DNA of 48,845 nt, from contig JAJEPU010000025.1 in NCBI GenBank assembly GCA_020686985.1, positions 1 to 48,845 on the forward strand. The letters run 5' to 3'. The position numbers were made by a program, and so were the translations under genes. The stretch is from Brotaphodocola catenula. Its GTDB lineage: Bacteria > Bacillota > Clostridia > Lachnospirales > Lachnospiraceae. Below are positions 4,530 through 27,359 of the stretch, one piece after another (the first letter of the stretch is position 1; each line of letters opens with the position of its first letter). The notes beneath the pieces were generated by a model. That model ran no database searches. It was not told where the DNA came from and saw only the letters and a program-made list of their open reading frames with translations.

Positions 4530-5567
4530 TCAATCGCCACTATTTTGTTTCCGGTATTCAGCCGGTGCAATCTTCATGACATCTCGAAATGCTGTTGCAA
4601 ATTTACTCTGATTCTCATATCCAACCTGGCTGGCAATTTCTGCTATGGTTGCCTGTGTCTGGCGAAGCAGAGCAGCGGCCTGTTTCATGCGGTACACTTT
4701 CATATAGGTTCCAATGGGCTGTCCATAAACTCCCTTGAACGTATCCTTTAAGGTTGCCGTATTGATAAGATACTCTTTGGAAAGTTCCTCAATCGTTGGC
4801 CGTTCCTGCAAGTTGGAGATAAGCCGCTTGTGAATGTCCCGTACAATCTCCACCTGGGGAGAAGTATATAACTCTCGCTGCTTTTCTTTATTTACATCCA
4901 CCATACACAAGAATAAGAGAAGCTCCTGCACCTTCAGCATGAAGTATGGCTTTTGCAGGCGATCCGGTACGGAATACAGTTCAGAAAAGATATGCTCAAT
5001 CTCATCCTTGGCCCGCATGACAAAGCATGCGCCATCGGCACAAAATTTGTTTTTGAAATCTGCAATACCAATACCGCTCTCGGCGAGGATTCCAGGCGGA
5101 TTTTGAGAAACCAGCTCCAGATCAAGCACTACTGAGATTCCGCGATAATGTCTCAAAGGAAAGGCCATTTCAGAAGCACAGTTATCCATTGTATGAATGG
5201 AAAGATCCCCTTCTCCGAGGTACAGGCAGGAACCGCTTTGCAATACGCTCCCTTCACGCCCTTCCCGGCAATGATTGATCTCCAGCACATTCTTATCAAT
5301 GGTTCCGTCCCAATAACAACTCGTTGCTTCAAAATCATTGTAAATAAGCTGGATACCGGGATAAACCTGATAGACTGTCATAAGCCCCAGGCCATCCTCA
5401 CAGTCCATTTTATAGACGGTGCAATATCCGTCATTATCTTTTGGAATAATCGCAGATAACCCCGTAGCATTGGTGATAGGGTTTTTGTTCATAGTATTCA
5501 TTCCGTTATCTCGTATTTGTTCTGCCAGGATTCTCCTGGCGTCTTTTATTATATAGTTTTTTCTCAT
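4530..5567 (-). CDS. AraC-family transcriptional regulator (PchR-like)
   Basis: A 345-residue regulator with a 240-residue N-terminal sensing region and a C-terminal double helix-turn-helix (about 245-345, ending in the typical YENQSKFATAFRDVMKIAPAEYR pattern, shown here by its key residues E, F, F and P-EYR). The overall form resembles iron-responsive PchR-type activators. I start it at the ATG preceded by GGAGCGG; an ATG about 22 residues later is possible. It has its own promoter, TTGCAC-17-TATAAT, just after the terminator of the feo operon. A motif near its own start recurs at the MATE-feo operon and at the HMA/zinc ATPase promoter, so it probably controls itself and those two units. Confidence 0.88.
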   Translation of the reverse strand: MRKNYIIKDARRILAEQIRDNGMNTMNKNPITNATGLSAIIPKDNDGYCTVYKMDCEDGLGLMTVYQVYPGIQLIYNDFEATSCYWDGTIDKNVLEINHCREGREGSVLQSGSCLYLGEGDLSIHTMDNCASEMAFPLRHYRGISVVLDLELVSQNPPGILAESGIGIADFKNKFCADGACFVMRAKDEIEHIFSELYSVPDRLQKPYFMLKVQELLLFLCMVDVNKEKQRELYTSPQVEIVRDIHKRLISNLQERPTIEELSKEYLINTATLKDTFKGVYGQPIGTYMKVYRMKQAAALLRQTQATIAEIASQVGYENQSKFATAFRDVMKIAPAEYRKQNSGD

Positions 5568-5573
5568 TTTATA

Positions 5574-5610
5574 CCGCTCCAATCGGCAGGATGTGCAATC
5601 CAATCAGAAA
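5574..5610 (+). promoter_or_regulatory. Shared operator copy 1 (at the araC gene)
   Basis: CCAATCGGCAGG-N5-CAATCCAA, preceded by CCGCTC and followed by TCAGAAA. It lies just downstream of the araC promoter, where bound protein would block transcription, which suggests autorepression. A degenerate CGGCAGG copy in opposite orientation sits within the promoter spacer. Confidence 0.65.
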
Positions 5611-5619
5611 GCAAATTCT

Positions 5620-5648
5620 ATTATAGTGCAGCCCTGCCGAATGTGCAA
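5620..5648 (-). promoter_or_regulatory. araC promoter
   Basis: On the minus strand, TTGCAC and TATAAT are separated by exactly 17 bases, about 55 bases upstream of the araC start. Confidence 0.65.
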
Positions 5649-5660
5649 ATATACGAAAAA

Positions 5661-5691
5661 GCCGATGCCCTCCAAAACGGAAAACATCGGC
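5661..5691 (-). terminator. Terminator of the MATE-feo operon
   Basis: GCCGATG/CATCGGC stem followed on the minus strand by TTTTTCG, 14 bases after the Cys-rich gene. It separates the feo operon from araC. Confidence 0.8.
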
Positions 5692-5704
5692 TATATGCGG
5701 GATT

Positions 5705-5848
5705 TTATTTGCTGCAATATTCCTTTCCTACACAACCGGAACAACTGCCGCTACAACAAGAACCATTTTTGCGGTTCTTATGGATTTTTCGCACAGCCCA
5801 TATTGCATAGAAAACAATCCCGATAAGGATTATACCAGTAACAAGCAT
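5705..5848 (-). CDS. FeoB-associated Cys-rich membrane mini-protein (47 aa)
   Basis: A 47-residue protein: one membrane segment (about 3-19), a basic stretch, then a Cys-rich tail with CCSGSCSGC and a further Cys near the end. This matches the small FeoB-associated Cys-rich membrane proteins of Firmicutes, thought to help FeoB by binding iron or another partner at the membrane. AAGGAG lies 7 bases before the ATG. It is the last gene of the leftward MATE-feo operon. It is short enough to be missed by gene finders. Confidence 0.85.
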   Translation of the reverse strand: MLVTGIILIGIVFYAIWAVRKIHKNRKNGSCCSGSCSGCVGKEYCSK

Positions 5849-5883
5849 CTAAAACTCCTTTCTGACTGGAAACTCACAACTTA

Positions 5884-5985
5884 TTAGCTTTGGGTCTCCG
5901 ATCCTCTTTTCAAAATCCAAAGTCCAAATGTGACCACTGATAAAATGGCCGCTGAACGAAGCACTTTTCCAAACGTCATATTCAT
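5884..5985 (-). CDS. Small single-span membrane protein after feoB (31-33 aa)
   Basis: A 33-residue frame (31 if the second ATG is used, which has better spacing to GAGG) begins three bases after the feoB stop. It has one hydrophobic helix flanked by Lys/Arg. I know no named family. Its place between feoB and the Cys-rich mini-protein suggests a FeoB accessory subunit, perhaps in the role that FeoC plays elsewhere, but this is inferred from position only. Confidence 0.5.
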   Translation of the reverse strand: MNMTFGKVLRSAAILSVVTFGLWILKRGSETQS

Positions 5986-5988
5986 ACC

Positions 5989-8028
5989 TCACAGCAAAAG
6001 TCCAACACGATAAACCACAAAAGTAACAGCCCAGGCCACAACCAACTGGAACAGGGCCGAGAACAGCATCCACCTTGTACTGCCGGATTCCTTGCGAATT
6101 GTAGCTAGGGCCGCTGCACAGGGAACGTAAAGCAGGCAGAAAATCATCAGGCAAAACGCATTGAGCTGTCCAAAACCGGCTGCACCCAGGATGCCGACCA
6201 ATGTATCCATTCCCGCGCCGGAGTTGATATTGGGAATCCCAAACAGAACGGCACAACTGGACACCACAACCTCTTTTGCAGAGATGCCAGCAATCAGAGC
6301 AACCGCTATCTGCCAGAATCCCAGTCCAATCGGTGCAAAGATCGGTACAAGCCAATGGCCCAGGATAGACCCGAAGCTGTCTGCCATTTCCGTAGTATAG
6401 CCATGCGGCCCAAAGTTCAGGATCACCCACATGAGGATAGATGCTACAAAGATGGTAGTACCTGCTTTGGTAAGGTAGTCCTTTACCTTTTCCCATACAT
6501 AGATTGCCACAGTTCTGGCGCTGGGGGCCTTATATTCCGGCAGCTCAATCAGCAGATAATTTTCCGATTTTCTCCGGTCAATCAAATGGATGATCGCCGC
6601 TACCAGGATAGCGACCACCAGGCCGATCAGGTACATGGAATAGGCCACGAGCATGGCGCGTTCCTGAAAGAACATCTCGGCAAACAAGATGTAGATTGGC
6701 AGACGGGCGCTGCAACTCATAAAGGGCGTAATCAACATGACCTTAAAACGGTCACGCCGGTTTTCCAAAGACCGTGAAGCCATGATTGCCGGAACAGTGC
6801 AGCCAAATCCCAAAATCATGGGGATAAATGCCCGTCCGGAAAGTCCCAGCTTGCTCATAATCCCTTCCATGACATACGCAACACGGGCCATATATCCGCT
6901 GTCCTCCAGAAAAGCCAATGCCAGAAACAGAATGAAAATGTTCGGCAGGAAAGTCAGGATACCGCCCACACCGGCGATGATGCCGTCTACCAGCAGGGAG
7001 CGCAGCACTTCATTGACCCCGACAGCAATCAGTCCATCGCTTATCAATGCCGACAGGCTTTCAATTCCTAATTCTAGGAATCCTTTCAGCCAATCGCCAA
7101 TGGTAAAGGTCAGGAAGAACACCGCCGCCATGACAACGAGGAAAATCGGGATGCTCCAAAACTTATGCGTCAATACACGGTCTGCCTTTTCCGTCAAAGC
7201 GTCTTGACGATCCTTATTGACCAGAACCTCCCTGATGATTTCCTCGATAAAATCATACTTCTCATTGATAATGTCGGATTCATAGTTCCGGTCGATCACA
7301 TCCGGCATATTGACCGGATAACGTGCAGAGATTTCCTTATCCTGCTCCAGCAGCTTAATGGCGTGCCAGCGGTAATTGGACAGGTTCGGATATTTCCGCT
7401 TCAGCTCTGCCATGATAAGATCAATCTTGTCCTCAATAGCATCACTGTAAACCATTGCGTATTCTGAATGGTGGTCGTGCCGGTGTTTTGGAGTATATTT
7501 ATGATGATGAATCAGACACTCCGGATCTTTACAGTCTTTATGGTGCGCGGCTGCATGAAGTAGCACATCCAGTCCTGTCCGTTTTCTGGCTGAAACTGGA
7601 ATGACCGGGATGCCCAGCATTTCCGGCAGTCTGTGTGTGTCAATCTCCATGCCGCGCTTTTCCACAATGTCCATCATGTTCAGCGCCAGCACAACCGGCT
7701 TGCCCAGCTCCAAAAGCTGCAAAGTTAAGTATAGGTTTCGCTCCAGAGCGGAAGCGTCCGCAACATCAATAATCACATCGACTTCATCGCTTAGTATAAA
7801 CTGTCTGGATACCTGTTCTTCCATTGTGTAGGAGGTCAGGCTGTAAGTGCCAGGAAGATCGACCAGTCGAATATTCAGATCATGGTCTTTAATGGCACCC
7901 TCTACTTTCTCAACGGTTACACCTGGCCAGTTTGCCACTTTCAGATTTGCACCGGTGTAAGCATTGAAAAGTGTTGTCTTTCCGCAGTTCGGATTTCCGA
8001 TGAAGCCGATAGTCAAATTTTCTCTCAT
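5989..8028 (-). CDS. feoB: Ferrous iron transporter FeoB
   Basis: A 679-residue FeoB, the GTPase-linked membrane protein that imports Fe(II). The N-terminal G domain has G1 GNPNCGKT (11-18), the switch region NWPGVTVEK, G3 DLPG (57-60), G4 NMMD (117-120) and G5 SAR (146-148). The membrane region carries the conserved FeoB Gate motifs (GCTVPA; KEVVVSSCAVLFG). A His-rich insert at about 162-188 holds about eleven His and two Cys between the G domain and the helical region, which could bind metal. It is slightly short for the family but complete. It starts 6 bases after feoA, so translation is probably coupled. Confidence 0.97.
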   Translation of the reverse strand: MRENLTIGFIGNPNCGKTTLFNAYTGANLKVANWPGVTVEKVEGAIKDHDLNIRLVDLPGTYSLTSYTMEEQVSRQFILSDEVDVIIDVADASALERNLYLTLQLLELGKPVVLALNMMDIVEKRGMEIDTHRLPEMLGIPVIPVSARKRTGLDVLLHAAAHHKDCKDPECLIHHHKYTPKHRHDHHSEYAMVYSDAIEDKIDLIMAELKRKYPNLSNYRWHAIKLLEQDKEISARYPVNMPDVIDRNYESDIINEKYDFIEEIIREVLVNKDRQDALTEKADRVLTHKFWSIPIFLVVMAAVFFLTFTIGDWLKGFLELGIESLSALISDGLIAVGVNEVLRSLLVDGIIAGVGGILTFLPNIFILFLALAFLEDSGYMARVAYVMEGIMSKLGLSGRAFIPMILGFGCTVPAIMASRSLENRRDRFKVMLITPFMSCSARLPIYILFAEMFFQERAMLVAYSMYLIGLVVAILVAAIIHLIDRRKSENYLLIELPEYKAPSARTVAIYVWEKVKDYLTKAGTTIFVASILMWVILNFGPHGYTTEMADSFGSILGHWLVPIFAPIGLGFWQIAVALIAGISAKEVVVSSCAVLFGIPNINSGAGMDTLVGILGAAGFGQLNAFCLMIFCLLYVPCAAALATIRKESGSTRWMLFSALFQLVVAWAVTFVVYRVGLLL

Positions 8029-8034
8029 CGGAAT

Positions 8035-8250
8035 TTACCCCACTAAAATATTCTTTGTGATATTGCGCCCAAGTGCAAAGCGTGTTCCCCTGACTTTCAC
8101 AATCAGGACACCCCGACTTTTGCTGTTCAGAACAGCGATAGAGGTTCCACGGGTCATCCCAAGGGCCTCCAAACGCTTTTCTATATTGACAGGCAGATCA
8201 ATATCCTCAACTTTATATTCATTTCCTATTTTTCCATCGCAAAGATACAT
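8035..8250 (-). CDS. feoA: FeoA, SH3-like partner of FeoB
   Basis: A 71-residue SH3-like protein with the family pattern: EKRLEALGMTRGTSIAVLN, then a Gly-Val turn and a final RFALGRNITKNILV strand. FeoA is thought to bind FeoB and support iron uptake. It lies between the MATE gene (13-base gap) and feoB (6-base gap) in one operon. Length is normal. Confidence 0.95.
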   Translation of the reverse strand: MYLCDGKIGNEYKVEDIDLPVNIEKRLEALGMTRGTSIAVLNSKSRGVLIVKVRGTRFALGRNITKNILVG

Positions 8251-8263
8251 GAACGCTCCCTCC

Positions 8264-9637
8264 TCACCGATTTACGGAAGAAGTCTCCGGCAGCTTGCCA
8301 AACTCATAAAGCATCATAGAAACGGTAATAACCACCAGAATTGCATCTGTCAGAGCAATCGCCAGCCATACGCCACGAATACCCATGCCGCCGATCATCG
8401 GAAGAACCACGCAGAGAGGAATAAACAGAATGATCTGGCGGAACAGCACCAGCCAAGTTGCCTTTTTCGCCTTGCCCAAAGACTGGAACAGGGTTACGGC
8501 AATCATAAAGCTGCCTTGCAGGACATAAGTGCTGAACATGATGCGGAAGTTGGTTGCACCCGATGCCGCGATACCCGGCGTTGTCAGGAACATGGATAAA
8601 ATCTTCTCTGGAAACAGCTCGGCAGGAATATAGAACACCAGCGACAGCAGCGTTGCAGCAGTAATAAAAACCCTGGTCAGCGTCTTTACCCGGTCATAGT
8701 CCTTTGCACCATAGTTTGTACCGGCGGCAGGCTGGAATCCCTGACTGATCCCCCACAGAGGAACGAAAGAGAAATTCCAGAAGCGGAGCGCCGCACCTAA
8801 AAGAAGCTGTGAAGTTTCCCCGCCATAGTTCGATGCCACACGATAGATCACTGTCTGCTGTACCAGGGTCAGAATCTGCATCAACAGAGCAGATACCCCG
8901 ACAGAAAGAACCTGGGGAAGCAGTTCTCCGTCAATGCGGATGCGCCCAATCTTCACATGAGGACTTTTTTTCTTGAAATACCACAGCGTAATTGCAGCTT
9001 GGACAAACTGGGAGAAAATCGTTGCATAAGCAGCCGCCTCAATGCCCATACCGTAGGGATTCAGGATACTGATAAAAATAGGGTCAAGAATGATATTCAA
9101 AATAGCGCCGCTGGCAATAATGGTCATTGCCCTTTTGAGCTGGCCTTCTCCACGGATGACCATGTTGGCGCTCTGGAAGAAGTTTACGAACAGAGAACCG
9201 GCGAATACGATCCGCAGATATTTCTCAGCGTAATTCAGAATGTTATCGCTGGCTCCGGTCAGGGACAGAAGCTGGCGGGTGAAAACCATACCCACAACAG
9301 TGTAGATGACGGACAACAGAAGAACCATCGCAACCAAGTTGCCCATGATCTTCTTAATTGTGTTCTCGTCCTTCTTACCGATAGCGCGGGACAGTACCGA
9401 TGCAGAACCCACGCCCAGCATTGCCGCTGAACCGGCATTGATAAGGGTTAAAGGATAGGATACCGATATGGCTCCCATCTGCACGTCACCAACCATCTGC
9501 CCGACAAAGATGGAATCCATCATGTTATAAAGCCCAACGACCACCATGCCAAGAACCGCAGGGATGCTAAGTTCAATCATCAGCGGCCAGGGATTTTTTG
9601 TTAAGAGCTTTGTTCTTGTGTCAAGTGCCTGTTTCAT
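8264..9637 (-). CDS. MATE-family multidrug/metabolite efflux transporter
   Basis: A 457-residue integral membrane protein with about twelve predicted segments in two homologous halves and the MATE entry signature near the N-terminus (PAVLGMVVVGLYNMMDSIFVGQ, key residues N, D, F-G). Such pumps use Na+ or H+ to export cations or metabolites. An in-frame GTG one codon earlier could also start it; GGAGG is 9 bases from the ATG. It leads the MATE-feoA-feoB operon. Being first in an iron operon with a shared operator suggests an iron-linked task such as exporting a toxic or iron-binding compound, though the substrate cannot be read from sequence. Confidence 0.93.
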   Translation of the reverse strand: MKQALDTRTKLLTKNPWPLMIELSIPAVLGMVVVGLYNMMDSIFVGQMVGDVQMGAISVSYPLTLINAGSAAMLGVGSASVLSRAIGKKDENTIKKIMGNLVAMVLLLSVIYTVVGMVFTRQLLSLTGASDNILNYAEKYLRIVFAGSLFVNFFQSANMVIRGEGQLKRAMTIIASGAILNIILDPIFISILNPYGMGIEAAAYATIFSQFVQAAITLWYFKKKSPHVKIGRIRIDGELLPQVLSVGVSALLMQILTLVQQTVIYRVASNYGGETSQLLLGAALRFWNFSFVPLWGISQGFQPAAGTNYGAKDYDRVKTLTRVFITAATLLSLVFYIPAELFPEKILSMFLTTPGIAASGATNFRIMFSTYVLQGSFMIAVTLFQSLGKAKKATWLVLFRQIILFIPLCVVLPMIGGMGIRGVWLAIALTDAILVVITVSMMLYEFGKLPETSSVNR

Positions 9638-9671
9638 CACTCTATTCCTCCTGGTCTATTTTAATTACAAG

Positions 9672-9708
9672 GTATCCAGCAAAACGCGCCAGTGACGCGC
9701 CTCGCTGG
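9672..9708 (-). promoter_or_regulatory. Leader hairpin of the MATE-feo operon
   Basis: Outer arms ATCCAGC/GCTGGAT enclose GCGC repeats in the 5' leader, about 35 bases before the MATE start. No T run follows, so it is probably a stability or regulatory structure rather than a terminator. The remaining gap 9638-9844 holds the shared operator and a hairpin, no gene. Confidence 0.4.
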
Positions 9709-9762
9709 ATTAACCATATCTAACTAACCACTTAAAGTATATAAAAACCGGGCTTCTTTGTA

Positions 9763-9798
9763 CGCTCCCAACCGCAGGATTTACAATCCAATCTGAAA
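9763..9798 (-). promoter_or_regulatory. Shared operator copy 2 and MATE-feo promoter region
   Basis: Matches copy 1 at 30 of 36 ungapped positions, including GCAGGAT and CAATCCAATC. On the minus strand it lies upstream of a TATACT -10 (about 9737-9742) with a poor -35, the usual layout for an activator-dependent promoter. Confidence 0.65.
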
Positions 9799-9806
9799 CG
9801 AATTTA

Positions 9807-9839
9807 GGAGCGGAAAGGACATAAGGCCCTTCCCGCTCC
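9807..9839 (-). terminator. Hairpin after csoR
   Basis: GGAGCGG-AAGG arms face each other across an 8-9 base loop, 5 bases after the csoR stop. The T run is weak (TAAATT), so termination may be partial, with readthrough into the MATE-feo promoter region. Confidence 0.5.
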
Positions 9840-9844
9840 CGTTG

Positions 9845-10108
9845 TTACTGTATCATTTTTTCCAGTAATTTCAGGGCTTCTTCCAGTTTTGGATTTACAG
9901 CGTCCGTTTGCAGGGCATCCCGGACGCAGCTTCGTATATGGGCTTGCAAAATCTGCTGATTGGCGCTTTTTAATAACGCCTGCGTAGCAAGAAGCTGATT
10001 GGAAATATCCACGCAATAGCGATTTTCCTCAACCATTTGCAGGATACCGTCTAACTGTCCTCTGGCGATTTTTAGCTTGTGAACAATATCGCCTTTCTTG
10101 GCCTTCAT
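9845..10108 (-). CDS. csoR: CsoR copper-sensing repressor
   Basis: An 87-residue all-helical CsoR/RcnR-family protein. Cys32, His57 and Cys61 have the same spacing (25 and 4) as the Cu(I) ligands of known CsoR proteins, which separates it from nickel (RcnR) and formaldehyde (FrmR) relatives. CsoR leaves its operator when it binds Cu(I). It begins 10 bases after copA, so the two genes form one operon, and a CsoR-like box lies upstream of copA. Autoregulation of the copA-csoR transcript is likely. Confidence 0.92.
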   Translation of the reverse strand: MKAKKGDIVHKLKIARGQLDGILQMVEENRYCVDISNQLLATQALLKSANQQILQAHIRSCVRDALQTDAVNPKLEEALKLLEKMIQ

Positions 10109-10118
10109 AAACGGCCCG

Positions 10119-12698
10119 TTACTGGATACTGACGAGCTGATAGCCAGCGTCCTCGATAGCAGCTTTCAGCACAGCATCCGGCACATCCTGGTCAAGCTGC
10201 ACCTGGGCCGACTTACTCTCCAGGGAAACATCCACATCCTTGATGCCCTGGATGTCCCGCAGCGCCTTATCAACGTGTTTTACACACATTCCGCAAACCA
10301 TTCCCTCGATTTTCAATACTTTTTCCATGTGAATTGCTCCTTTTCGTTCTTGTTTAATCGTTGTTTGTTCATACATAGGGACTGAATCCCGTTCTGTATT
10401 GGCCTGATGCTTCGCCTTGAACCACCGCAGACGCAGGGCATTGGACACCACGAATACCGAACTGAAACTCATAGCAAAAGCGCCGATCATGGGGTTCAGC
10501 TTCCATGCAAAGGGAAGATAGAATACGCCTGCCGCCACCGGAATCCCGATGATGTTGTAGATAAACGCCCAGAACAGATTTTGCTTGATGTTGCGGATAA
10601 CCGCCTTACTAAGCTGGATTGCCGTGGACACATCCAGCAGATCGCTTTTCATCAAAACAATGTCCGCTGACTCAATCGCCACATCCGTTCCGGCCCCGAT
10701 AGCGATACCAACATCCGCTCTGGCAAGGGCCGGAGCATCGTTGATACCGTCACCGACCATCGCCACCTTCTTACCGACGCTCTGCAAACGACGGATTTCC
10801 TTCTCCTTGTCCTGGGGGAATACCTCTGCCACAACACGATCCACGCCGACCTGACGCCGAATCGCTTCTGCGGTCTTTGCGTTGTCGCCGGTCAGCATGA
10901 CCACCTCAATGCCCATGCCGGTCAATTCCGCTATGGCCTGCTTGCTGGTGGGCTTAACTACATCCGCCACGGCAATGACACCAATAAGCTGACCGCCACG
11001 GGCAAAGAACAGAGGTGTTTTCCCGTCAACCGCCATTTCCTCGCCCAACTGAAGGAGTGCGCCGCCATTGATGCCATTTGCCGCCATCAGTCGGCGGTTT
11101 CCGGCAAGGCACGTTTCGTTTCCGATCTGACCCACAAGGCCCTGACCGGGAATCTGCTTGAAATCATCCACCGGGAGGAAGGAAAGTTGTGCTTTTTCGG
11201 CCTCTGCCACAATCGCGTCCGCCAGCGGATGCTCGGACAGCTTTTCCAGCGAAGCAGCGATTTGCAGCATCTCCTTTTGTGGAACACCCTCTTTGCAGAG
11301 CATATTTGTCACCACGGGCGTACCCTGGGTAATCGTGCCGGTCTTATCCAGCACAACCGTATCAATGTTATGGGCCGTTTCCAGGGCCTCCGCCGATTTA
11401 ATCAGGATACCGTTGCTTGCGCCCTTGCCGGTTCCGACCATAATGGCCGTAGGCGTTGCAAGGCCCAGCGCACAGGGACAGGAAATGACCAGGACAGAAA
11501 TGCCGATAGATAGGGCAAATTCAAAGCCATATCCCAACAGCAGCCAGACAATGACTGCAATCAGCGCGATGCTGATAACCACCGGAACAAACACGCCGCT
11601 GACCTTATCAGCCAGTTTCGCAATAGGGGCCTTGGAGCTGGTCGCTTCATCCACCAGACGGACGATCTGTGCCAGCGTGGTATCATCGCCCACCTTGGTG
11701 GCCTGCATCTTGAAATAGCCGGACTTACTTGTGGTCGCGCCGATCACTTTGTCCCCGATATGCTTCTCCACGGGGATGCTCTCGCCGGTCAGGGCAGATT
11801 CATCAACGGAGGAAAAGCCCTCGATGACAATACCATCCACCGGCACAGACTCACCGGCCTTGACAATCAGGGTTTCGCCCAACTGCACTTCTTCCACAGG
11901 CACCTGAAGCTCTTTTCCATCCCGCTCCACGGTAGCTGTTTTGGGAGCCAGATTCATCAGCTTTGTAATTGCATCCGAAGTCTTACCCTTTGCGCGGGCC
12001 TCCAGGGTTTTGCCCAAGGTGATAAGGGTCAGAATCATGCCTGCGGATTCAAAATACAAATCCATCATAAAGCTGTGAACCGTAGCCATATCCCCATGAC
12101 CGAATCCGATGCCGATTTTGTAAATGGCGTAAATGCCATAAACGATTGCGGCGCTGGAGCCTATCGCAATCAGCGAATCCATGTTAGGCGAGCCGTGGAA
12201 CAGGGTCTTGAAGCCCATCCGGTAATATTTGAAGTTGATGAACACCACCGGGATCAGCAGCAGGAATTGGGTAAATGCAAAGCTGATTGCATTTTCCATC
12301 CCCAGCAAGGAGCTGGGGAGCGGCCACCCCATCATGTGACCCATAGAAATATAAAACAGTGGGATCGTAAAAAGGGCAGAAAGCAGCAGCCGCTGTTTCA
12401 TCTGCTTGTATTCTACCTGCGCCGTACTGACCTCCGGTTTTGCTGCCGGTGTGGTCGTGCGGCTCTTGTTTTGTGCGGAGGCTTTGGGAATCGCGCCATA
12501 ACCGGCCTTTTCAACGGCCTGGACGATTCCCGCCGTATCCAAAACGGATTCATCATAAGAAGCAACCATGCTGTTTTTTAACAGGTTGACGGACACTTCT
12601 TTGATGCCAGGTAGCTTTGCCACGCTCTTTTCCACTCTGGTAGAGCAGGCCGAGCAAGTCATACCCGTAATGTCAAATTGCTCCTTTTGCAAAATCAT
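10119..12698 (-). CDS. copA: Copper-exporting P1B ATPase CopA with fused C-terminal CopZ-like domain
   Basis: An 859-residue Cu(I) pump. Order: N-terminal HMA domain with GMTCSAC (Cys15, Cys18), membrane segments, ISCPCALG near 405, DKTGT near 449, [12 protein letters not shown], and the copper-type YN and MSFSS signatures in the last helices. A linker (about 765-790) leads to a second HMA domain with GMVCGMC at the C-terminus, which is unusual for CopA. That domain looks like a CopZ chaperone, and its first Met has its own GGAG site, so a free 69-residue CopZ is probably also made. I set the start at the first ATG after the upstream leader; a longer open frame upstream lacks homology. CsoR is encoded next. 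Confidence 0.95.
10326..10344 (-). promoter_or_regulatory. Internal ribosome binding site and start for a CopZ-like chaperone
   Basis: Inside copA, AAAGGAG lies 8 bases before an in-frame ATG that begins [15 protein letters not shown]. Initiation here would give a 69-residue copper chaperone (10119-10328). The site is as strong as those of true starts nearby, which suggests an ancestral copA-copZ pair joined by loss of a stop codon. Confidence 0.65.
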
Positions 12699-12727
12699 CC
12701 CTTCTTTCTTATAAAGATTTGTGCGAG

Positions 12728-12755
12728 TACCCCTCCCCCGTAGGGAACTAAATAC
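12728..12755 (-). promoter_or_regulatory. CsoR-type operator upstream of copA
   Basis: The minus strand contains CCCTACGGGGGAGGGGTA, 30 bases before the copA start. The CCCTACGGGGG core resembles the operator of the Bacillus subtilis copZA operon as I recall it. Together with csoR in the operon this is a likely copper-controlled site. Confidence 0.6.
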
Positions 12756-12766
12756 CGTTATGAAAA

Positions 12767-12805
12767 GGGGCGTTTGGCATCTTGGGGGAAAGATGCTAAA
12801 GCCCC
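12767..12805 (-). terminator. Leader terminator or attenuator before copA
   Basis: Inner stem GCATCTT/AAGATGC and outer stem GGGGC/GCCCC are followed on the minus strand by TTTTCA. Because it lies upstream of copA on the same strand, it either blocks readthrough or regulates a transcript starting from a TATAAT near 12845-12850. Confidence 0.55.
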
Positions 12806-12873
12806 GAACATAAAGTTTACGCACAAGGTCTTTGACCGTTTTTCATTATACTTATCCTGCTTCTCCTTTGTCT

Positions 12874-12895
12874 GCTCCAAAGTGGAGCTTTTTTT
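12874..12895 (+). terminator. Rightward terminator in the copA-HMA gap
   Basis: GCTCCA-AAG-TGGAGC followed by seven T. No rightward gene precedes it, so it implies an unseen short rightward RNA or insulates the HMA promoter. The whole gap 12699-13089 holds only regulatory sites: CsoR box, two hairpins, shared operator and HMA promoter. Confidence 0.6.
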
Positions 12896-12928
12896 ATCCA
12901 AAGAGAAATGAGGTTTTTTGCTGGAAAT

Positions 12929-12953
12929 CCAATCGGCAGGTTCTCCAATCCAA
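12929..12953 (+). promoter_or_regulatory. Shared operator copy 3 (at the HMA/zinc ATPase promoter)
   Basis: CCAATCGGCAGG-N5-CAATCCAA, identical to copy 1 at all 20 fixed positions. It ends 24 bases before the -35 hexamer of the HMA promoter, a normal place for an AraC-type activator. A second CCGCTCC also lies between it and the promoter. Confidence 0.65.
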
Positions 12954-12977
12954 AGGGCAGAACCGCTCCCAAATCCA

Positions 12978-13006
12978 TTGACTTTGAGGGTTTTCGTGAA
13001 TATACT
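12978..13006 (+). promoter_or_regulatory. Promoter of the HMA and zinc/cadmium ATPase genes
   Basis: TTGACT-17-TATACT, a near-consensus sigma-70 promoter, about 80 bases upstream of the HMA start. Confidence 0.8.
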
Positions 13007-13089
13007 GGCAGCATGAACGATTAAACAATCTTTTAATTGTTCAGCCATATCAAGCCAACCAAATACCAAAATGAAAGGGGGCTTTCTCA

Positions 13090-13308
13090 ATGAAAAAGAC
13101 CATTAAACTGCTTGACCTGGACTGCGGCCATTGTGCTGACAAAATCCAGAACGCCGTGAAGAAGATTGATGGTGTGACCAGCGTATCCGTCAACTTCCTG
13201 GGTCAGAAGATGGTTCTGGAAGCGCCGGACGATCAGTTTGACGCTGTTCTGGCCGAAGCAAAGACGCTGATTAAGCAGATCGAGCCGGACGTGACTGTTA
13301 AGGCGTAA
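13090..13308 (+). CDS. Small heavy-metal-associated (HMA) protein
   Basis: A 72-residue HMA (ferredoxin-like) protein with the metal-binding motif DCGHC (Cys12, Cys15). The Asp before the motif and the lack of GMTCxxC fit HMA domains of zinc/cadmium ATPases rather than copper chaperones. The ATPase gene that follows lacks such an N-terminal domain, so this looks like that domain carried as a separate protein, handing metal to the pump or buffering it. A terminator-like hairpin between the genes would make the small protein more abundant than the pump. Confidence 0.88.
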   Translation: MKKTIKLLDLDCGHCADKIQNAVKKIDGVTSVSVNFLGQKMVLEAPDDQFDAVLAEAKTLIKQIEPDVTVKA

Positions 13309-13320
13309 TGAAAAGCTGGA

Positions 13321-13351
13321 CACCGGCTGCCACAAGGTAGCCGGTGTTTTT
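13321..13351 (+). terminator. Partial terminator between HMA and ATPase genes
   Basis: CACCGGCT/AGCCGGTG stem followed by five T. Since the ATPase gene lacks a clear own promoter in the short gap after it, this probably reduces rather than ends transcription. Confidence 0.7.
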
Positions 13352-13409
13352 CATCAATAGACAGAAAAAGCGTGACACGCTTTATGCTGCAACGAAAGGA
13401 GAATACACT

Positions 13410-15290
13410 ATGACACGAAAACAAAGGCACTTGCTCACACGCATTATCGTGGCGGCGGTGCTGTTTCTTGCAGGCAGCTTGCTCCATCTCCCTGAATTGG
13501 CGGAGATGGCGGTCTTTCTCGTCTGCTATGTGGTTGTCGGCTGGGATATTGTCTGGAAGGCAATCACGAACATCCTGCATGGACAGGTGTTTGACGAAAA
13601 TTTCCTGATGACGATTGCCACCATCGGCGCACTCATTTTGGGCGAACATTCCGAGGGTGTCGCCGTTATGCTGTTTTACCAGGTGGGCGAATGGTTCCAG
13701 TCCTATGCGGTGTCCAAGTCCAGAAAATCTATCGCAAGCCTGATGGACATTCGCCCGGACTATGCTAACATCGAAAGGGACGGAAAACTGGTTCAGGTTG
13801 ACCCGGACGAGGTTCAGATCGGAGAAACCATTGTTGTGAAACCGGGAGAGCGCATCCCGCTGGACGGTACGATTCTCAAAGGCTTCTCCACCCTGGACAC
13901 TTCGGCCCTGACCGGAGAATCCATGCCCCGCGAGGTGGAGCCGGGAATGGAGGTCATCAGCGGCTGTATCAACCAGACCGGCATCCTGAACATTCAGACC
14001 ACAAAAGAATTTGGGGAATCCACCGTAGCCAAAATCCTTGACCTTGTGGAAAACGCAAGCGATAAGAAGGGCCGTATTGAGAATTTCATCACACGCTTTG
14101 CCAGGTATTATACCCCGGTAGTGGTATTTGCTGCTCTGGCGCTGGCAATCCTGCCGCCGCTGATTACCCAGCAGCCATTCAGCACCTGGATTTACCGGGC
14201 CTTGACCTTCCTGGTGATTTCCTGCCCCTGTGCGCTGGTCATCTCCATTCCGCTTAGTTTCTTCGGAGGCATCGGCGGCGCGTCCAAGATCGGCGTTCTG
14301 GTAAAGGGCAGCAACTATCTGGAGGCCCTGGCAAATACCGAGGTCGTGGTCTTTGATAAGACCGGCACACTGACAAAAGGCTCCTTTGCGGTCAGCGAGA
14401 TCCACCCTGTCGGCATGAAGGAAGCGCAGCTTTTGGAGCTGGCCGCATACGCTGAGGACTACTCCAACCACCCGATTTCTCTTTCTATTAAAAACGCCTA
14501 TGGACAGAAAATCGACAACAGCCGAGTTTCCGATGTCCAGGAAATTGCCGGTCACGGCGTGCAGGCCGTGATTGACGGGAAAACGATTCTGGCCGGAAGC
14601 ACCAAGCTGATGGAGAAAGCGCATATTAAGTACACGCCATCCTCAGCTGTCGGCACCGTGGTCTATCTGGCCTGTGACGGGAAATACGCTGGATGTATCA
14701 TCATTGAGGACGAGATCAAGGCCGATGCTCCAGCCGCAATCAAGCTGCTGAAATCTGCCGGTATCCGCAAAACGGTCATGCTGACCGGCGATGCAGATGC
14801 CGTTGGAAAGAAAGTCGCAGGGCAGCTTCATCTGGATCAGGTTTATACTGAACTGCTGCCCGCTGATAAGGTTGACCGCGTGGAAAGCCTGCTGAAGCAG
14901 AAAAGCGAAAAAGGTATGTTGGCCTTTGTTGGGGATGGTATCAATGACGCTCCCGTACTGGCGCGGGCCGATGTCGGTATTGCTATGGGCGGCTTGGGTT
15001 CCGATGCGGCCATTGAAGCTGCTGACGTGGTTCTTATGACGGATGAACCGTCCAAGATTGCCGCTGTTATGAAGATCGCCCGTAAGACGATCCGCATCGC
15101 AAATCAGAATATTGTGTTTGCCCTGGGCGTGAAATTCCTGGTTCTGATTTTAGGTGCGCTAGGCTATGCAAATATGTGGGCGGCGGTGTTCGCGGATGTA
15201 GGCGTTTCCATTATTGCGATTCTCAATGCCATCCGCGCCATGCGGGTCAAGCTGCCGGATATGCCAGCGGGCAGCACAAATCAGGGTTAA
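13410..15290 (+). CDS. Zinc/cadmium-type heavy-metal P1B ATPase
   Basis: A 626-residue pump with ISCPCALVIS near 271, DKTGT near 316, SNHPIS, TGDAD and GDGINDAP near 507. CPC followed by ALVIS and the absence of the copper YN/MxxSS pair fit ZntA/CadA-type Zn/Cd/Pb export. The protein starts almost directly with the first membrane segments: the N-terminal HMA domain seen in most relatives is missing and is encoded by the separate gene just upstream. I start it at the ATG with AAAGGAG 8 bases before; an in-frame ATG 22 codons earlier lacks such a site. Two ArsR-type metal sensors lie downstream. Confidence 0.94.
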   Translation: MTRKQRHLLTRIIVAAVLFLAGSLLHLPELAEMAVFLVCYVVVGWDIVWKAITNILHGQVFDENFLMTIATIGALILGEHSEGVAVMLFYQVGEWFQSYAVSKSRKSIASLMDIRPDYANIERDGKLVQVDPDEVQIGETIVVKPGERIPLDGTILKGFSTLDTSALTGESMPREVEPGMEVISGCINQTGILNIQTTKEFGESTVAKILDLVENASDKKGRIENFITRFARYYTPVVVFAALALAILPPLITQQPFSTWIYRALTFLVISCPCALVISIPLSFFGGIGGASKIGVLVKGSNYLEALANTEVVVFDKTGTLTKGSFAVSEIHPVGMKEAQLLELAAYAEDYSNHPISLSIKNAYGQKIDNSRVSDVQEIAGHGVQAVIDGKTILAGSTKLMEKAHIKYTPSSAVGTVVYLACDGKYAGCIIIEDEIKADAPAAIKLLKSAGIRKTVMLTGDADAVGKKVAGQLHLDQVYTELLPADKVDRVESLLKQKSEKGMLAFVGDGINDAPVLARADVGIAMGGLGSDAAIEAADVVLMTDEPSKIAAVMKIARKTIRIANQNIVFALGVKFLVLILGALGYANMWAAVFADVGVSIIAILNAIRAMRVKLPDMPAGSTNQG

Positions 15291-15337: not shown

Positions 15338-15703
15338 TTATTGTTCAGTCGGGCATGATACTTCAAACAACGCATCTATGGCATGATGCAGGAGCTTTGC
15401 CTGCGGCGTGTCCGACAGCGAATAATAGACTTCTTTTCCGTCCCTGCGGCTTGAAATGATCCCGCTCTTTTTTAATATCCGCAGATGATGTGACACAGCA
15501 GGGGCGCTCATATCCACAGCCGCCGCGAGATTGCATACACATTCTTCACAATGGCACAGCAGCCACAGAATCCGCAGCCGGGTCGGATCGCCAAGCTGCT
15601 GAAATAAAAATGATATATCCTTAAACCCTTCCGCAGATGGCATCTTATTTAAGACTTTTTCAATATTCTGTCCGTGGTTATGGGGTAGATTGTAATGCGG
15701 CAT
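15338..15703 (-). CDS. ArsR/SmtB-family metal-sensing repressor, CadC-like
   Basis: A 121-residue winged-helix repressor. The recognition segment SAPAVSHHLRILKKSG is typical of the family. A CHCEECVCN cluster (Cys50, 52, 55, 57) matches the ELCVCD-type Cys site of CadC/CmtR-like sensors, so soft metals such as Cd or Pb are likely ligands. His106 and His107 near the C-terminus could form the second site. I start it at the ATG with AGGAG; upstream in-frame codons overlap the divergent gene and its promoter. A clear promoter, TTGACA-17-TATCAT, precedes it. It probably represses the ATPase or its own promoter. Confidence 0.88.
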   Translation of the reverse strand: MPHYNLPHNHGQNIEKVLNKMPSAEGFKDISFLFQQLGDPTRLRILWLLCHCEECVCNLAAAVDMSAPAVSHHLRILKKSGIISSRRDGKEVYYSLSDTPQAKLLHHAIDALFEVSCPTEQ

Positions 15704-15727
15704 AAAAATCAGCTCCTTCCTGTGACT

Positions 15728-15756
15728 ATGATACTGACATAATTCTTGTCTGTCAA
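15728..15756 (-). promoter_or_regulatory. Promoter of the CadC-like gene, with inverted repeat
   Basis: TTGACA-17-TATCAT on the minus strand. The repeat TGACA...TGTCA overlaps it and also lies near the start of the rightward ArsR gene, so one site could control both divergent genes. Confidence 0.75.
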
Positions 15757-15786
15757 ACAGCTTCATTATAGATTGGAGAAAAATAC

Positions 15787-16104
15787 ATGAACGAAACAGA
15801 GAAAAAAACTTTTTCCGCTCCAAGCCCTGGCGAATTGGAACAATTAACCGAGCTTCACAAAGCGATGGGCGATTACACACGGATGCGGATACTTTGGTAT
15901 CTGATGCAGAAAGATTCTTGCGTCAGCGAACTGGCACAAAAGATGGAGGTCACAGAATCGGCCATATCCCACCAGCTTCGTGCGCTTTGGATTGTCCGGT
16001 TAGTGCAATCACGCAAGGCCGGGAAAAACGTGATTTATTCCTTGCAGGACGAACATATCCGGTGGATTCTTGAAGAAACCTACGCTCATATTTCAGAAAG
16101 ATAA
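15787..16104 (+). CDS. ArsR/SmtB-family regulator, zinc-sensing type
   Basis: A 105-residue winged-helix protein, divergent from the CadC-like gene. The pair of Cys used for soft metals is reduced to one (Cys45), but the last helix has Asp88, His90, His101 and Glu104, the spacing of the SmtB/CzrA alpha-5 zinc site. Zinc sensing is therefore the best guess. TTGGAGAAAA lies before the ATG. Having two sensors of different metal type beside a Zn/Cd pump suggests separate responses to zinc and to toxic metals. Confidence 0.87.
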   Translation: MNETEKKTFSAPSPGELEQLTELHKAMGDYTRMRILWYLMQKDSCVSELAQKMEVTESAISHQLRALWIVRLVQSRKAGKNVIYSLQDEHIRWILEETYAHISER

Positions 16105-25069: not shown

Positions 25070-26848
25070 TCAAGAACTTTTGGTTATATTACCATTGTGG
25101 ATTGCTACATGGCATTCCCGACATACCACAAGCGTTTTTCTTTTTCTGGCAGACATTATCTGTACCCATTTAGGTACTTCTGCCTGTCCTTTCTTCTTTA
25201 AATCTGCAAGTTTTCTTATATGGTGTACCTCTATATTTTCAGTATTTCCACATAATTCACACTTCTCTGCCAACAGTCTTTTAACTAATTCTGTTCGCCC
25301 ACCATATACCTTGTATGGTATATCCTCTATAACAGCTTTTCGTTTATGCACAAGAGAGATTCCTCCCCATGTCGCAACTAATGGCTTTTTATTAGGACGT
25401 TCTACTACAACTTGCAGACACGGAACTGTTTTTCCACTTGTACTTGTTGTAGTTGTTTTATACTTAGCCTTTTGCTTATTGATAGATGACCTGTGTTTAC
25501 ACGCAAGAGTTTTCAATAATGAAGTTTCCATATACCAGTACAACTTCGAGAACCAAGACAAATTTTGTGCGAGAATATAATACTGCACCAGTCCTCTGTA
25601 CTCTTGTTGATATGTCTGTACAATAGAAAAATCATCATCTTGCAGAAGATTATTCCTGTGAGTTGCTTTTCCACGTTTCATATATTTCTTGCATTTTTCT
25701 TCAATCACTTTTGCAGGGACTAATAGTGCGATTGCTCCATTTGTTCCTCTGCGCCCCTTTGGGTCAATATAGTCATTGACCCTTTGTGCTTTGATTTCAT
25801 ATCCAAGAAACTTTGCCGCCTGACTGCCTGCATTTGTTATTAGAGTCTTTTCTTCTGACATTATCAGATTTAATTTCTCTTTTAGAAATCTTCCTATTTC
25901 TGCTTTTATTTCTTCTGCATCTGCTTTAGAGCCAGTGAATCCAAGTAGAAAATCATCCGCATATCTCACATAGCGTAATCTGCGATAATTCTCATCTTGC
26001 GTATTAACAGAAGGTATTTTTCTGCGTTCAACCACAAGCTGATGGGCTGTCTTTGCATCTCCCTCCTTTCTGAGTTTTTGGATTTCAGCGGTCAACTTGT
26101 TGTATTCTGGATTAGATTTCTGCCTTTTCCCTTTTGTGTATTTGGGGATTAAGACTTCTTCAATCCAATTATCAAATTCGTTGAGATAAATATTAGCCAG
26201 TATCGGACTGATAACTCCGCCCTGAGGCACACCGCTGATTGTCTGATTGAATTTCCATTCTTCCAAGTATCCAGCTTCTAACATATTCGATATCAGACGG
26301 ATAAATCTTCCATCATGGATATTTCTTGCAAGTATTTCCAGTAAAATTTTATGGTCGATTGTATCAAAGTATTGAGAAATATCTCCTTCAATAAACCAGC
26401 GAGTTCCTTTCCATACCTGTATTTCTTGTAGTGCTGTATGACACCCTCTGTTTGGACGAAAACCATGGGAATGTTCGCTAAACTGTGGTTCATAATACGC
26501 TTCTAAAATCTGGCGCATTACTTCCTGTAACACTTTATCTCCCCATACGGGAATCCCCAGCGGACGTTTTTTACCATTTTTCTTTTTGATATATTCCCGT
26601 CTTGCTGGTTTCCATTGATATTTCTCCTCACGGAGTATTTCAATCATTCTGTCTATTTTCTGAATGGACATTCCATCTACCGTTTCATCTGTAACACCCT
26701 TTGTCATTGCTCCGTTATTCGGGTATAACTTAGCGTAGGCATTCAGATACAATTCACGGTTAAATAAGAGCTTGTAAACTCTTTCAATAGGTTTCTTTTG
26801 TTTCCCACGTTCTTGAATGACCGTTAAAACAGTTTTGGCTGTACGCAT
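25070..26848 (-). CDS. ltrA: Group II intron reverse transcriptase/maturase
   Basis: A 592-residue intron protein that helps the RNA splice and lets it move into DNA by target-primed reverse transcription. The reverse transcriptase has RYADDFLLGF (Asp-Asp catalytic pair) and SGVPQGGVISP. Maturase domain X follows, and an HNH endonuclease at the C-terminus (CELCGN, VHHIRKL, CRECHVAIH). All parts are present, so the intron may still be mobile. A GTG three codons earlier is an alternative start. Confidence 0.95.
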   Translation of the reverse strand: MRTAKTVLTVIQERGKQKKPIERVYKLLFNRELYLNAYAKLYPNNGAMTKGVTDETVDGMSIQKIDRMIEILREEKYQWKPARREYIKKKNGKKRPLGIPVWGDKVLQEVMRQILEAYYEPQFSEHSHGFRPNRGCHTALQEIQVWKGTRWFIEGDISQYFDTIDHKILLEILARNIHDGRFIRLISNMLEAGYLEEWKFNQTISGVPQGGVISPILANIYLNEFDNWIEEVLIPKYTKGKRQKSNPEYNKLTAEIQKLRKEGDAKTAHQLVVERRKIPSVNTQDENYRRLRYVRYADDFLLGFTGSKADAEEIKAEIGRFLKEKLNLIMSEEKTLITNAGSQAAKFLGYEIKAQRVNDYIDPKGRRGTNGAIALLVPAKVIEEKCKKYMKRGKATHRNNLLQDDDFSIVQTYQQEYRGLVQYYILAQNLSWFSKLYWYMETSLLKTLACKHRSSINKQKAKYKTTTTSTSGKTVPCLQVVVERPNKKPLVATWGGISLVHKRKAVIEDIPYKVYGGRTELVKRLLAEKCELCGNTENIEVHHIRKLADLKKKGQAEVPKWVQIMSARKRKTLVVCRECHVAIHNGNITKSS

Positions 26849-27359
26849 CTCACGCACCTACTCCTTTCTAACTAATCGAAATTACCTGTCACCCTTCGCC
26901 ATGTACAAGGCTTTCCCTTGCTCGGACTACTATGGTGACTCCGTTACCATGGGGGTCTCCCCCTTTAGGCAATCCTGCCATTCGTCAAAAGTGTACGTAT
27001 CGAGCGTCCCTTAGGTTCCTCGTTCGTTCCTTTATTCGCACTCACTGTGCGCTCTTTTACTGCAAAAAGTTACCCGATGCCAAACCACATCATCAGGCAT
27101 ACAGTAACATCGGTATCAATCGCTTTCCGAAGGGCGATGCTGTGCACCAAGTCGGAACTAAGGTTCAGGCAGTATAGCTTTAACCATAGGACACGGAACT
27201 TGCGGAGCGTCGAAGTATTGCGATTAACTTCTTATCCGCTTTACCAACATGCGATTGTCCCCTTTGAGTTTCCTCGCCAGGTAGGTTGGTTGTTCCCATT
27301 ATTCACTTTTAATAATGTCCCCCTGCGGGGGAGATACACTTTTGCGCTTAGCAGCGCAC

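Follow-up and report, generated by a model that had tools for sequence, protein, structure and literature searches.

Activators of the AraC/XylS family (MarA/SoxS/Rob, RhaS and XylS) carry a DNA-binding domain with two helix-turn-helix (HTH) motifs and recognize tandem half-sites about 21 bp apart, the usual operator form in this family; they are known from class II sites and from reversed sites located farther upstream, and for self-control. The operators of ArsR and CsoR repressors are inverted repeats. Efflux operons of the zntA/cadA type under ArsR/SmtB proteins (CadC, CzrA, SmtB) are well known, as is the CsoR-copA operon, and bacterial metal sensing is usually described in terms of one metal and one sensor. 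The subject of the present analysis is a gene for an AraC-type regulator in a 48,845-nucleotide stretch of DNA (hereafter the window) from Brotaphodocola catenula (Clostridia; Lachnospiraceae; assembly GCA_020686985.1, contig JAJEPU010000025.1, positions 1 to 48,845), in which it is clustered with a MATE-feoA-feoB unit, a copA-csoR unit, an HMA-zntA unit and an arsR gene. The main reading, to which a probability of roughly 0.77 is assigned and in which both binding and the polarity of activation are predicted, is that the AraC protein binds 21-bp-spaced repeats at four places and thereby joins araC, MATE-feoA-feoB, copA-csoR and HMA-zntA into a metal regulon. Conserved operators would then link one AraC protein, on a contig with conjugative genes, to the export of zinc/cadmium and copper and to the import of ferrous iron, and a recipient could acquire a ready-made multi-metal response in a single step.

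In terms of sequence features, the protein and its sites share with the AraC/XylS activators the two-HTH domain, the tandem half-sites at about 21 bp, both site layouts and self-control. What sets the protein apart is its apparent use of the two layouts at genes for copper, zinc/cadmium and iron, in combination with an ArsR site. The HMA-zntA unit shares with the ArsR/SmtB-regulated operons a Zn/Cd-type ATPase, an HMA protein, an arsR gene and a palindrome below the -10 box (a predicted operator); in contrast to those operons, it has an AraC-type direct repeat upstream of the promoter as well, and certain genomes carry an ArsR fused to an AraC DNA-binding domain. As in the CsoR-copA operon, csoR lies beside copA, with the addition of an AraC class II site before the copA -10 box. 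A metal-linked AraC protein has a precedent in YbtA of the Yersinia high-pathogenicity island, which is needed for the copper-yersiniabactin response and requires two cysteines of its ligand domain (PMC8725597). Both are AraC-type regulators located on, or apparently on, mobile DNA and linked to metals. However, YbtA acts on yersiniabactin genes and needs Cu(II)-yersiniabactin (PMC8725597), whereas the predicted targets here are metal pumps, feoAB and a MATE transporter, and the likeness is an analogy rather than evidence for the window protein. In titles and abstract openings of the open-access literature, no description of this regulon, its target set or an ArsR::AraC fusion was found.

Four predicted operators and their co-occurrence with the AraC gene

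The four predicted operators are located as follows.

5579–5620, plus strand: operator 1 (araC), 21-bp direct repeat, CCAATCGGCAGGATGTGCAAT followed by CCAATCAGAAAG..., found by pattern and matrix
9767–9808, plus strand: operator 2 (MATE-feo), CCCAACCGCAGGATTTACAAT followed by CCAATCTGAAAC..., found by pattern and matrix
12929–12970, plus strand: operator 3 (HMA-zntA, upstream position), CCAATCGGCAGGTTCTCCAAT followed by CCAAAGGGCAGA..., found by pattern and matrix
12877–12918, plus strand: operator 4 (copA, weak), CCAAAGTGGAGC... followed by CCAAAGAGAAAT..., found by matrix and unseen in the earlier sequence-only reading

The core pattern CCAATCGGCAGG-N5-CAATCCAA, with up to 3 mismatches allowed, has three matches in the 48.8-kb window (5579–5603, 9767–9791 and 12929–12953, with 0, 3 and 0 mismatches, respectively), against a chance expectation of 0.01 per window (mean of 100 dinucleotide shuffles). 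An extended form of the motif, again with up to 3 mismatches, gives the same three matches and no others in the 3.32-Mb source genome. The three motif copies that the sequence-only reading had placed at 5574–5610, 9763–9798 and 12929–12953 were thereby recovered. Its agreement of 30 of 36 positions between copies 1 and 2 was reproduced on realignment, and its claim of full identity between copies 1 and 3 over the 20 fixed positions holds, both having no mismatch to the core.

Such identity at 20 of 20 fixed positions might suggest recently duplicated repeat DNA of a mobile element with no regulatory role. This has hardly any probability: over the full 42 bp the copies match at just 22–30 positions, the placement with respect to the HMA promoter persists where the AraC proteins are only ∼40–50% identical, and all 27 matches to an operator-plus-promoter pattern (see below) precede genes of the same few kinds.

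Aligned from the first CC, each of copies 1–3 is a 42-bp direct repeat with a period of 21. The halves of copy 1 (CCAATCGGCAGG and CCAATCAGAAAG) are identical at 9 of 12 positions at spacing 21, those of copy 2 (CCCAACCGCAGG and CCAATCTGAAAC) at 6 of 12 (spacing 20 equally gives 6), and those of copy 3 (CCAATCGGCAGG and CCAAAGGGCAGA) at 9 of 12 (spacing 16 equally gives 9). Upstream of 31 distant AraC genes, 21 was also the commonest spacing of WTGG pairs, with 11 cases versus at most 4 for any other spacing from 10 to 40. Operator 4 scored 16.3 with a matrix built from the close loci defined below, versus maxima of -1.3 to 6.8 across five simple shuffles. The half-sites of operators 4 and 3 start at 12877, 12898, 12929 and 12950 (steps of 21, 31 and 21) and would thus sit close to one helix face. 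A terminator-like hairpin with seven T on the plus strand (12874–12888) was also observed within operator 4; stems of this kind can be made out by eye in a number of relatives, although not in L078.

In a survey of 397 genomes of the family, the motif (up to 3 mismatches) was present in 9 of the 11 genomes with an AraC orthologue (at least 77% identity) and in 3 of the 386 others (nominal Fisher p = 2e-14, the genomes not being independent), so that the comparison of genomes with and without the AraC gene left the proposed operator standing. The two orthologue-bearing genomes that were missed (L078 and L079) carry diverged sites that the matrix found. Among the three motif-bearing genomes without an orthologue, G231 contains a relic, namely a MATE promoter and operator that look intact and have the 25-nt spacing described below, before a 122-residue MATE match (L138, at ∼2945). 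An extra match in G126 falls in an HMA-copA intergenic region on another contig (L128).

This distribution bears on the possibility that the sites belong to another DNA-binding protein (a host factor, ArsR or CsoR) and that the AraC gene is a bystander. Genes for ArsR and CsoR do lie in the same cluster, and one locus, L166, still has a site-like repeat where the AraC homologue is elsewhere in the genome. Nevertheless, the motif tracks the AraC gene among genomes, the 21-bp direct repeats are AraC-like, with an ArsR-like inverted repeat present separately, and the HMA promoters scored from AraC-free genomes lack the repeat at its usual offset (see below); a bystander role is therefore considered very unlikely.

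Promoter layout at araC, MATE and copA

Conservation was assessed in 15 close loci (the window, L009–L012 and L073–L082). The promoter calls rest on this conservation because the promoter scan finds no more promoters than shuffled sequence does (12 in the window versus 9.2 in shuffles). The promoter elements on the minus strand are listed here.

5620–5648, minus strand: araC promoter P1, TTGCAC-N17-TATAAT, with the operator over its start region; 13 of 14 loci
5548–5553, minus strand: -10 box TATAAT of araC promoter P2, without a clear -35 box, 25 nt below the operator edge; 14 of 14 loci
9736–9741, minus strand: -10 box TATACT of the MATE promoter, with no recognizable -35 box, 25 nt below the operator edge
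12845–12850, minus strand: -10 box TATAAT of the copA promoter, 26 nt below operator 4

Read in the direction of the gene, copies 1 and 2 terminate in GG-AGCG, and the -10 box lies exactly 25 nt further. The araC site is present in 14 of the 15 close loci, in every one with this spacing. For MATE, the site and the 25-nt spacing were found in 11 of the 12 close loci with upstream sequence, L080 being without a MATE site of its own. For copA, the site and the 26-nt spacing occur in 7 of the 9 close loci with copA and upstream sequence, and are missing in L010 and L082. L011 and L012, in which copA was not found, have site 4 directly before MATE. A pattern combining operator and -10 box, designed on the close loci themselves, has 27 matches in 763 kb, whereas resampled sequence yields 0.4; the next gene is always AraC, MATE, CopA or HMA.

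At araC P2, MATE and copA, where the promoter shows a -10 box alone, the site extends right up to the -35 region. This is the layout of class II activation, and the MATE-feo and copA units would be activated by AraC from these sites. Judged by its spread, the class II layout is a feature of the window's clade and perhaps of L097. At araC, bound AraC would shut P1 and open P2. The -10 box of P1 (TTTGCAC-like, N17, TATAAT) lies either 41 or 30–31 bp from the operator edge, distances about one helical turn apart. The sequence-only reading had copy 1 just past the araC promoter, which agrees with the minus-strand P1 above copy 1, and had copy 2 upstream of a promoter with a poor -35, as is the case for the MATE promoter. 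Its self-repression of araC fits P1, which the site would block, and fails for P2, where the geometry is that of activation in 14 of 14 loci; plain autorepression was therefore limited to P1, as P2 shares the 25-nt spacing of the MATE promoter. Similarly, the two target units that it had named, MATE-feo and HMA-zntA, both stand, and copA, with its own fourth site at an activation spacing, had been missed, as had P2 and the build of the copies as 42-bp repeats.

Only the HMA-zntA and araC sites might be functional, the copies at MATE and copA being remnants of rearrangement. The site at copA is weak, that at MATE departs from the core at 3 positions, and the neighbouring genes shuffle among relatives; in L009, moreover, one site is retained at a distance of 680 bp from copA, in addition to a weaker one close to the gene. 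On the other side, the exact -10 spacing is kept in the MATE and copA rows while the intervening sequence drifts, and in L010, where copA is 1.6 kb away, no site 4 scores above the matrix cut. Remnants are accordingly regarded as an unlikely explanation.

The HMA-zntA promoter and the ArsR::AraC fusions

The HMA-zntA unit differs in layout, with two elements below operator 3.

12978–13006, plus strand: HMA-zntA promoter, TTGACT-N17-TATACT, the -35 box 28 bp after the start of half-site 2
13014–13043, plus strand: inverted repeat TGAACGATTAAA-N6-TTTAATTGTTCA, probable ArsR/SmtB-type operator just below the -10 box, 11 of 12 arm positions pairing

Here the operator is reversed with respect to the gene and is located upstream of a complete promoter, the near-consensus promoter noted in the sequence-only reading. 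The distance of 28 bp between operator and promoter (TTGAC-N17/18-TATACT) is kept in all 11 close loci with HMA, and in L075 a single operator between divergent HMA and MATE promoters retains both distances. The composite HMA pattern has 21 matches (one L088 site counted twice), against none in resampled sequence, and all are before HMA or ZntA save one in L012, where no HMA was found. In L085 (at 9592, in araC orientation), a second HMA-type composite was seen 170 bp before the ZntA match, with HMA and ZntA on opposite strands. Repeats resembling the palindrome at 13014–13043 were seen by eye in the HMA regions of relatives.

This promoter also bears on the reading of AraC as mainly a repressor, which would block P1 and silence the other promoters until release by a ligand. 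Operator 1 does cover the start region of P1, itself conserved in 13 of 14 loci, and the HMA promoter boxes are near consensus and would need little help. In contrast, MATE and copA have a conserved -10 box and no clear -35 box, so that a site abutting at fixed distance fits activation, and the HMA site lies upstream of the -35 box, with a separate palindrome below the -10 box in the usual place of a repressor. Activation thus remains preferred, and a predominantly repressing AraC is thought improbable.

For distant loci, the 48-column matrix of the window group passed its cut in only 1 of 17, and tests based on spacing were used for this reason; a half-site consensus drawn by eye from the distant loci was dropped as circular, being derived from the same loci. 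The offset test employed a matrix trained only on the HMA sites of the window group and scored the best of at most 78 offsets. Of 35 AraC-linked loci given, 18 HMA promoters were scored, L083 once; the dropouts were the second L083 HMA and L097 (no recognized promoter), loci without an HMA-ZntA pair, and L085 (strand filter). Fourteen of these 18 distant promoters had their best offset at exactly 28 and another had it at 27, L136 being counted as AraC-linked though its AraC lies on another contig. When L136, itself found by its site, is excluded, the offset is 28 in 13 of 17. In genomes with ArsR present and AraC elsewhere, the offset was 28 in 1 of 4 HMA promoters, and where no AraC homologue was found (1e-40) in none of the 3 scored.

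A search of 391 genomes of the class with the HMA pattern gave five matches: the window, G598, G502, L131 and L135. Those in G598 and G502 are HMA-zntA promoters, the ArsR-AraC pair of G598 being on another contig; the spacing rules thus allow AraC-type zinc-pump promoters to be found by pattern alone (2 of 4 matches outside the window genome). Distant clusters are often arranged with ArsR-AraC divergent from HMA-zntA. The same pattern search exposed a fusion protein of 240 residues, composed of an ArsR domain followed by an AraC DNA-binding domain (L134:709–1431, the same gene as in L140). In the class draw of 391 genomes, six intact ArsR::AraC fusions occur in three families, together with two that have an in-frame stop; among the 6 genomes of the family of G502, the fusion gene was found in one. 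The fusion loci are these.

L134 (= L140) and L141–L145: ArsR::AraC fusion genes
L146–L147: ArsR::AraC fusion genes with an internal stop

HMA or ZntA adjoins the fusion gene in 7 of the 8 loci, the eighth, L145, being short, and the window ArsR shares 47% identity with the ArsR portion of the fusion. Of the eight loci, six were given to the offset test and five scored, and the offset was 28 in 3 of these 5 promoters. The fusions strongly hint that ArsR and AraC act on one promoter, and they give direct access to the question of how a repressor and an activator share it.

At HMA-zntA the site would accordingly be class I-like and upstream, and the likely logic is repression by ArsR, lifted by metal, together with activation by AraC: ArsR would hold the promoter until metal arrives, and AraC would help from upstream. 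A broader version is offered tentatively, at somewhat less than even odds. In many members of the class, HMA-zntA promoters may be two-key promoters, in which an AraC repeat 28 bp above the -35 box and an ArsR palindrome bracket RNA polymerase, so that full expression would need both metal release of ArsR and AraC activation. The fusions would be one-chain versions able to hold both operators simultaneously, and in the window's mobile element control by the AraC half would have spread to copper export, MATE and ferrous-iron import, yielding a transferable multi-metal regulon.

Several observations weigh against the regulon as proposed, or against its extension to the class. Operator 4 is weak and overlaps a terminator-like hairpin, and the next matrix match in the window after it, scoring 12.0, falls inside csoR, probably by chance. 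P2 falls within an N-terminal extension that is probably translated (ATG at 5567), and coding could explain part of its conservation; L080, in which no ATG was found at the extension position, retains the TATAAT of P2 at the same place. L012 is without its own site before AraC, which there lies directly behind MATE, and L083, with an AraC 55% identical, shows no clear site. The operator-plus-promoter pattern was found in only 1 of 31 distant loci (L097), and the strict HMA pattern in 7 of 15 distant loci with HMA. Certain matches are without explanation, namely L122 and L124 in the two remaining genomes that lack the orthologue, and L131 and L135 in the class search, and an extra match in the AraC-bearing G136 falls inside an ATPase-like gene (L129). 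In the offset test, the fusion-linked count becomes 2 of 4 without L140, which had been found by its site, and the AraC-free controls are few (seven loci given, four HMA regions, three promoters scored).

History, the AraC protein and neighbouring genes

A tree of 43 AraC proteins places the window in a group of 29 rows that is split from 14 others with a support of 90/79, below the mark for strong support. L011 (broken frame), L079 (nearly the same as L078) and L082 (partial) are left out of the tree. Label Z was assigned within a limit of 6 kb, and most of the window's clade, in which zntA is farther off, was consequently labelled o. Within the fetched stretches, HMA, ZntA or ArsR occurs in the cluster in 24 of the 29 members of the window group versus 1 of the 14 others, and the HMA-zntA linkage reaches down to ∼40% AraC identity. 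The neighbours in the other group and in L090 (10 proteins scanned) are of ABC-exporter type, FeoAB, CbiQ, Opp-type ABC and unrelated genes. MATE has FeoAB as its neighbour in the window, L009, L076 and L081; in the fetched stretches of L010, L011, L012, L073, L075 and L078–L080, a search (tblastn, 1e-6) did not find FeoAB next to MATE. Neighbouring genes shuffle a great deal among relatives.

Because HMA, ZntA or ArsR is present in so much of the group and FeoAB is patchy, the zinc/cadmium pump is probably the oldest detectable target and iron import (feo) a late one, with MATE recruited later than HMA-zntA and copA and feo joining or leaving. The sequence-only reading had combined iron import, the MATE pump and zinc export in one mobile regulon. 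The shared operator and the conjugative contig support this, but a regulon built around iron was dropped, since several loci with the sites retained yielded no FeoAB next to MATE. As a whole, that interpretation is partly supported: one AraC-type operator common to araC, MATE-feo and the HMA-zntA pump, its main point, is borne out by conserved sites and co-occurrence, while it was incomplete on self-control, missed copA and the ArsR site, and was too iron-centred. In L083, a second copy in G136, copA-csoR, feoAB, MATE, AraC, ArsR, three HMA genes and zntA all lie on one strand, with no clear operators; visual inspection alone suggested possible degenerate sites ahead of copA and feoA, and these are not put forward as operators.

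The AraC protein matched the Pfam domains HTH_18 (E=1.8e-18) and HTH_AraC (E=8e-9), consistent with a two-HTH C-terminus. Chains of AraC, MarA and SoxS were matched by both sequence and structure, and Rob by sequence. The AlphaFold2 model (mean predicted local distance difference test score 71.9, five sequences) has a cupin-like, beta-rich N-terminus and a two-HTH C-terminus. In this moderate-confidence model, the N-terminal domain gave weak matches to the AraC dimerization domain 1xja and to oxalate decarboxylase; whole-chain root-mean-square deviations were large, and the structure search confirms an AraC-type fold and no more. His99-Cys100 and Cys176 are invariant across five aligned AraC proteins, which is no proof of zinc sensing because one of the five, L013, has no zinc pump found on its stretch. 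The 22-residue N-terminal extension (5501–5567) is probably translated, from P1 transcripts only, and two protein forms may exist.

The genes and terminator-like hairpins of the cluster are as follows.

4530–5567, minus strand: AraC/XylS-family regulator, 345 amino acids from ATG 5567 (alternative ATG 5501, 323 amino acids); Pfam HTH_18, HTH_AraC
5660–5692, minus strand: terminator-like hairpin closing the MATE-feo unit (hairpin scan)
5705–5848, minus strand: FeoB-associated Cys-rich protein; Pfam PF12669
5989–8028, minus strand: feoB; Pfam FeoB_N, Gate, FeoB_C
8035–8250, minus strand: feoA; Pfam FeoA
8264–9640, minus strand: MATE transporter, leading gene of the MATE-feoA-feoB unit; Pfam MatE
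9806–9840, minus strand: terminator-like hairpin closing the copA-csoR unit (hairpin scan)
9845–10108, minus strand: CsoR-type metal-sensitive repressor, adjoining copA; Pfam Trns_repr_metal
10119–12698, minus strand: copA-like P-type ATPase with HMA domains (Pfam); start 12698 chosen, longest open reading frame from 12824
13090–13308, plus strand: HMA metallochaperone-like protein, 72 amino acids; Pfam HMA
13344–15290, plus strand: ZntA/CadA-like P-type ATPase; Pfam E1-E2_ATPase, Hydrolase; longest open reading frame, true start probably later
15338–15880, minus strand: ArsR-family repressor; Pfam HTH_5; longest open reading frame

The terminator scan finds 12 such sites in the window versus 8.0 in shuffles. 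Zinc/cadmium as the substrate of the ZntA/CadA-like pump is inferred from family resemblance. No siderophore genes were found among the 19 window proteins scanned with Pfam, and a plasmid search with the region returned four records, covering at most 6% of it. The contig also encodes a large serine recombinase, a MobA-type relaxase, a TraG-type ATPase, TrbL and a topoisomerase, for which a conjugative element is a fair reading, and a group II intron reverse transcriptase/maturase (window 25070–26857) is located amid the conjugative genes.

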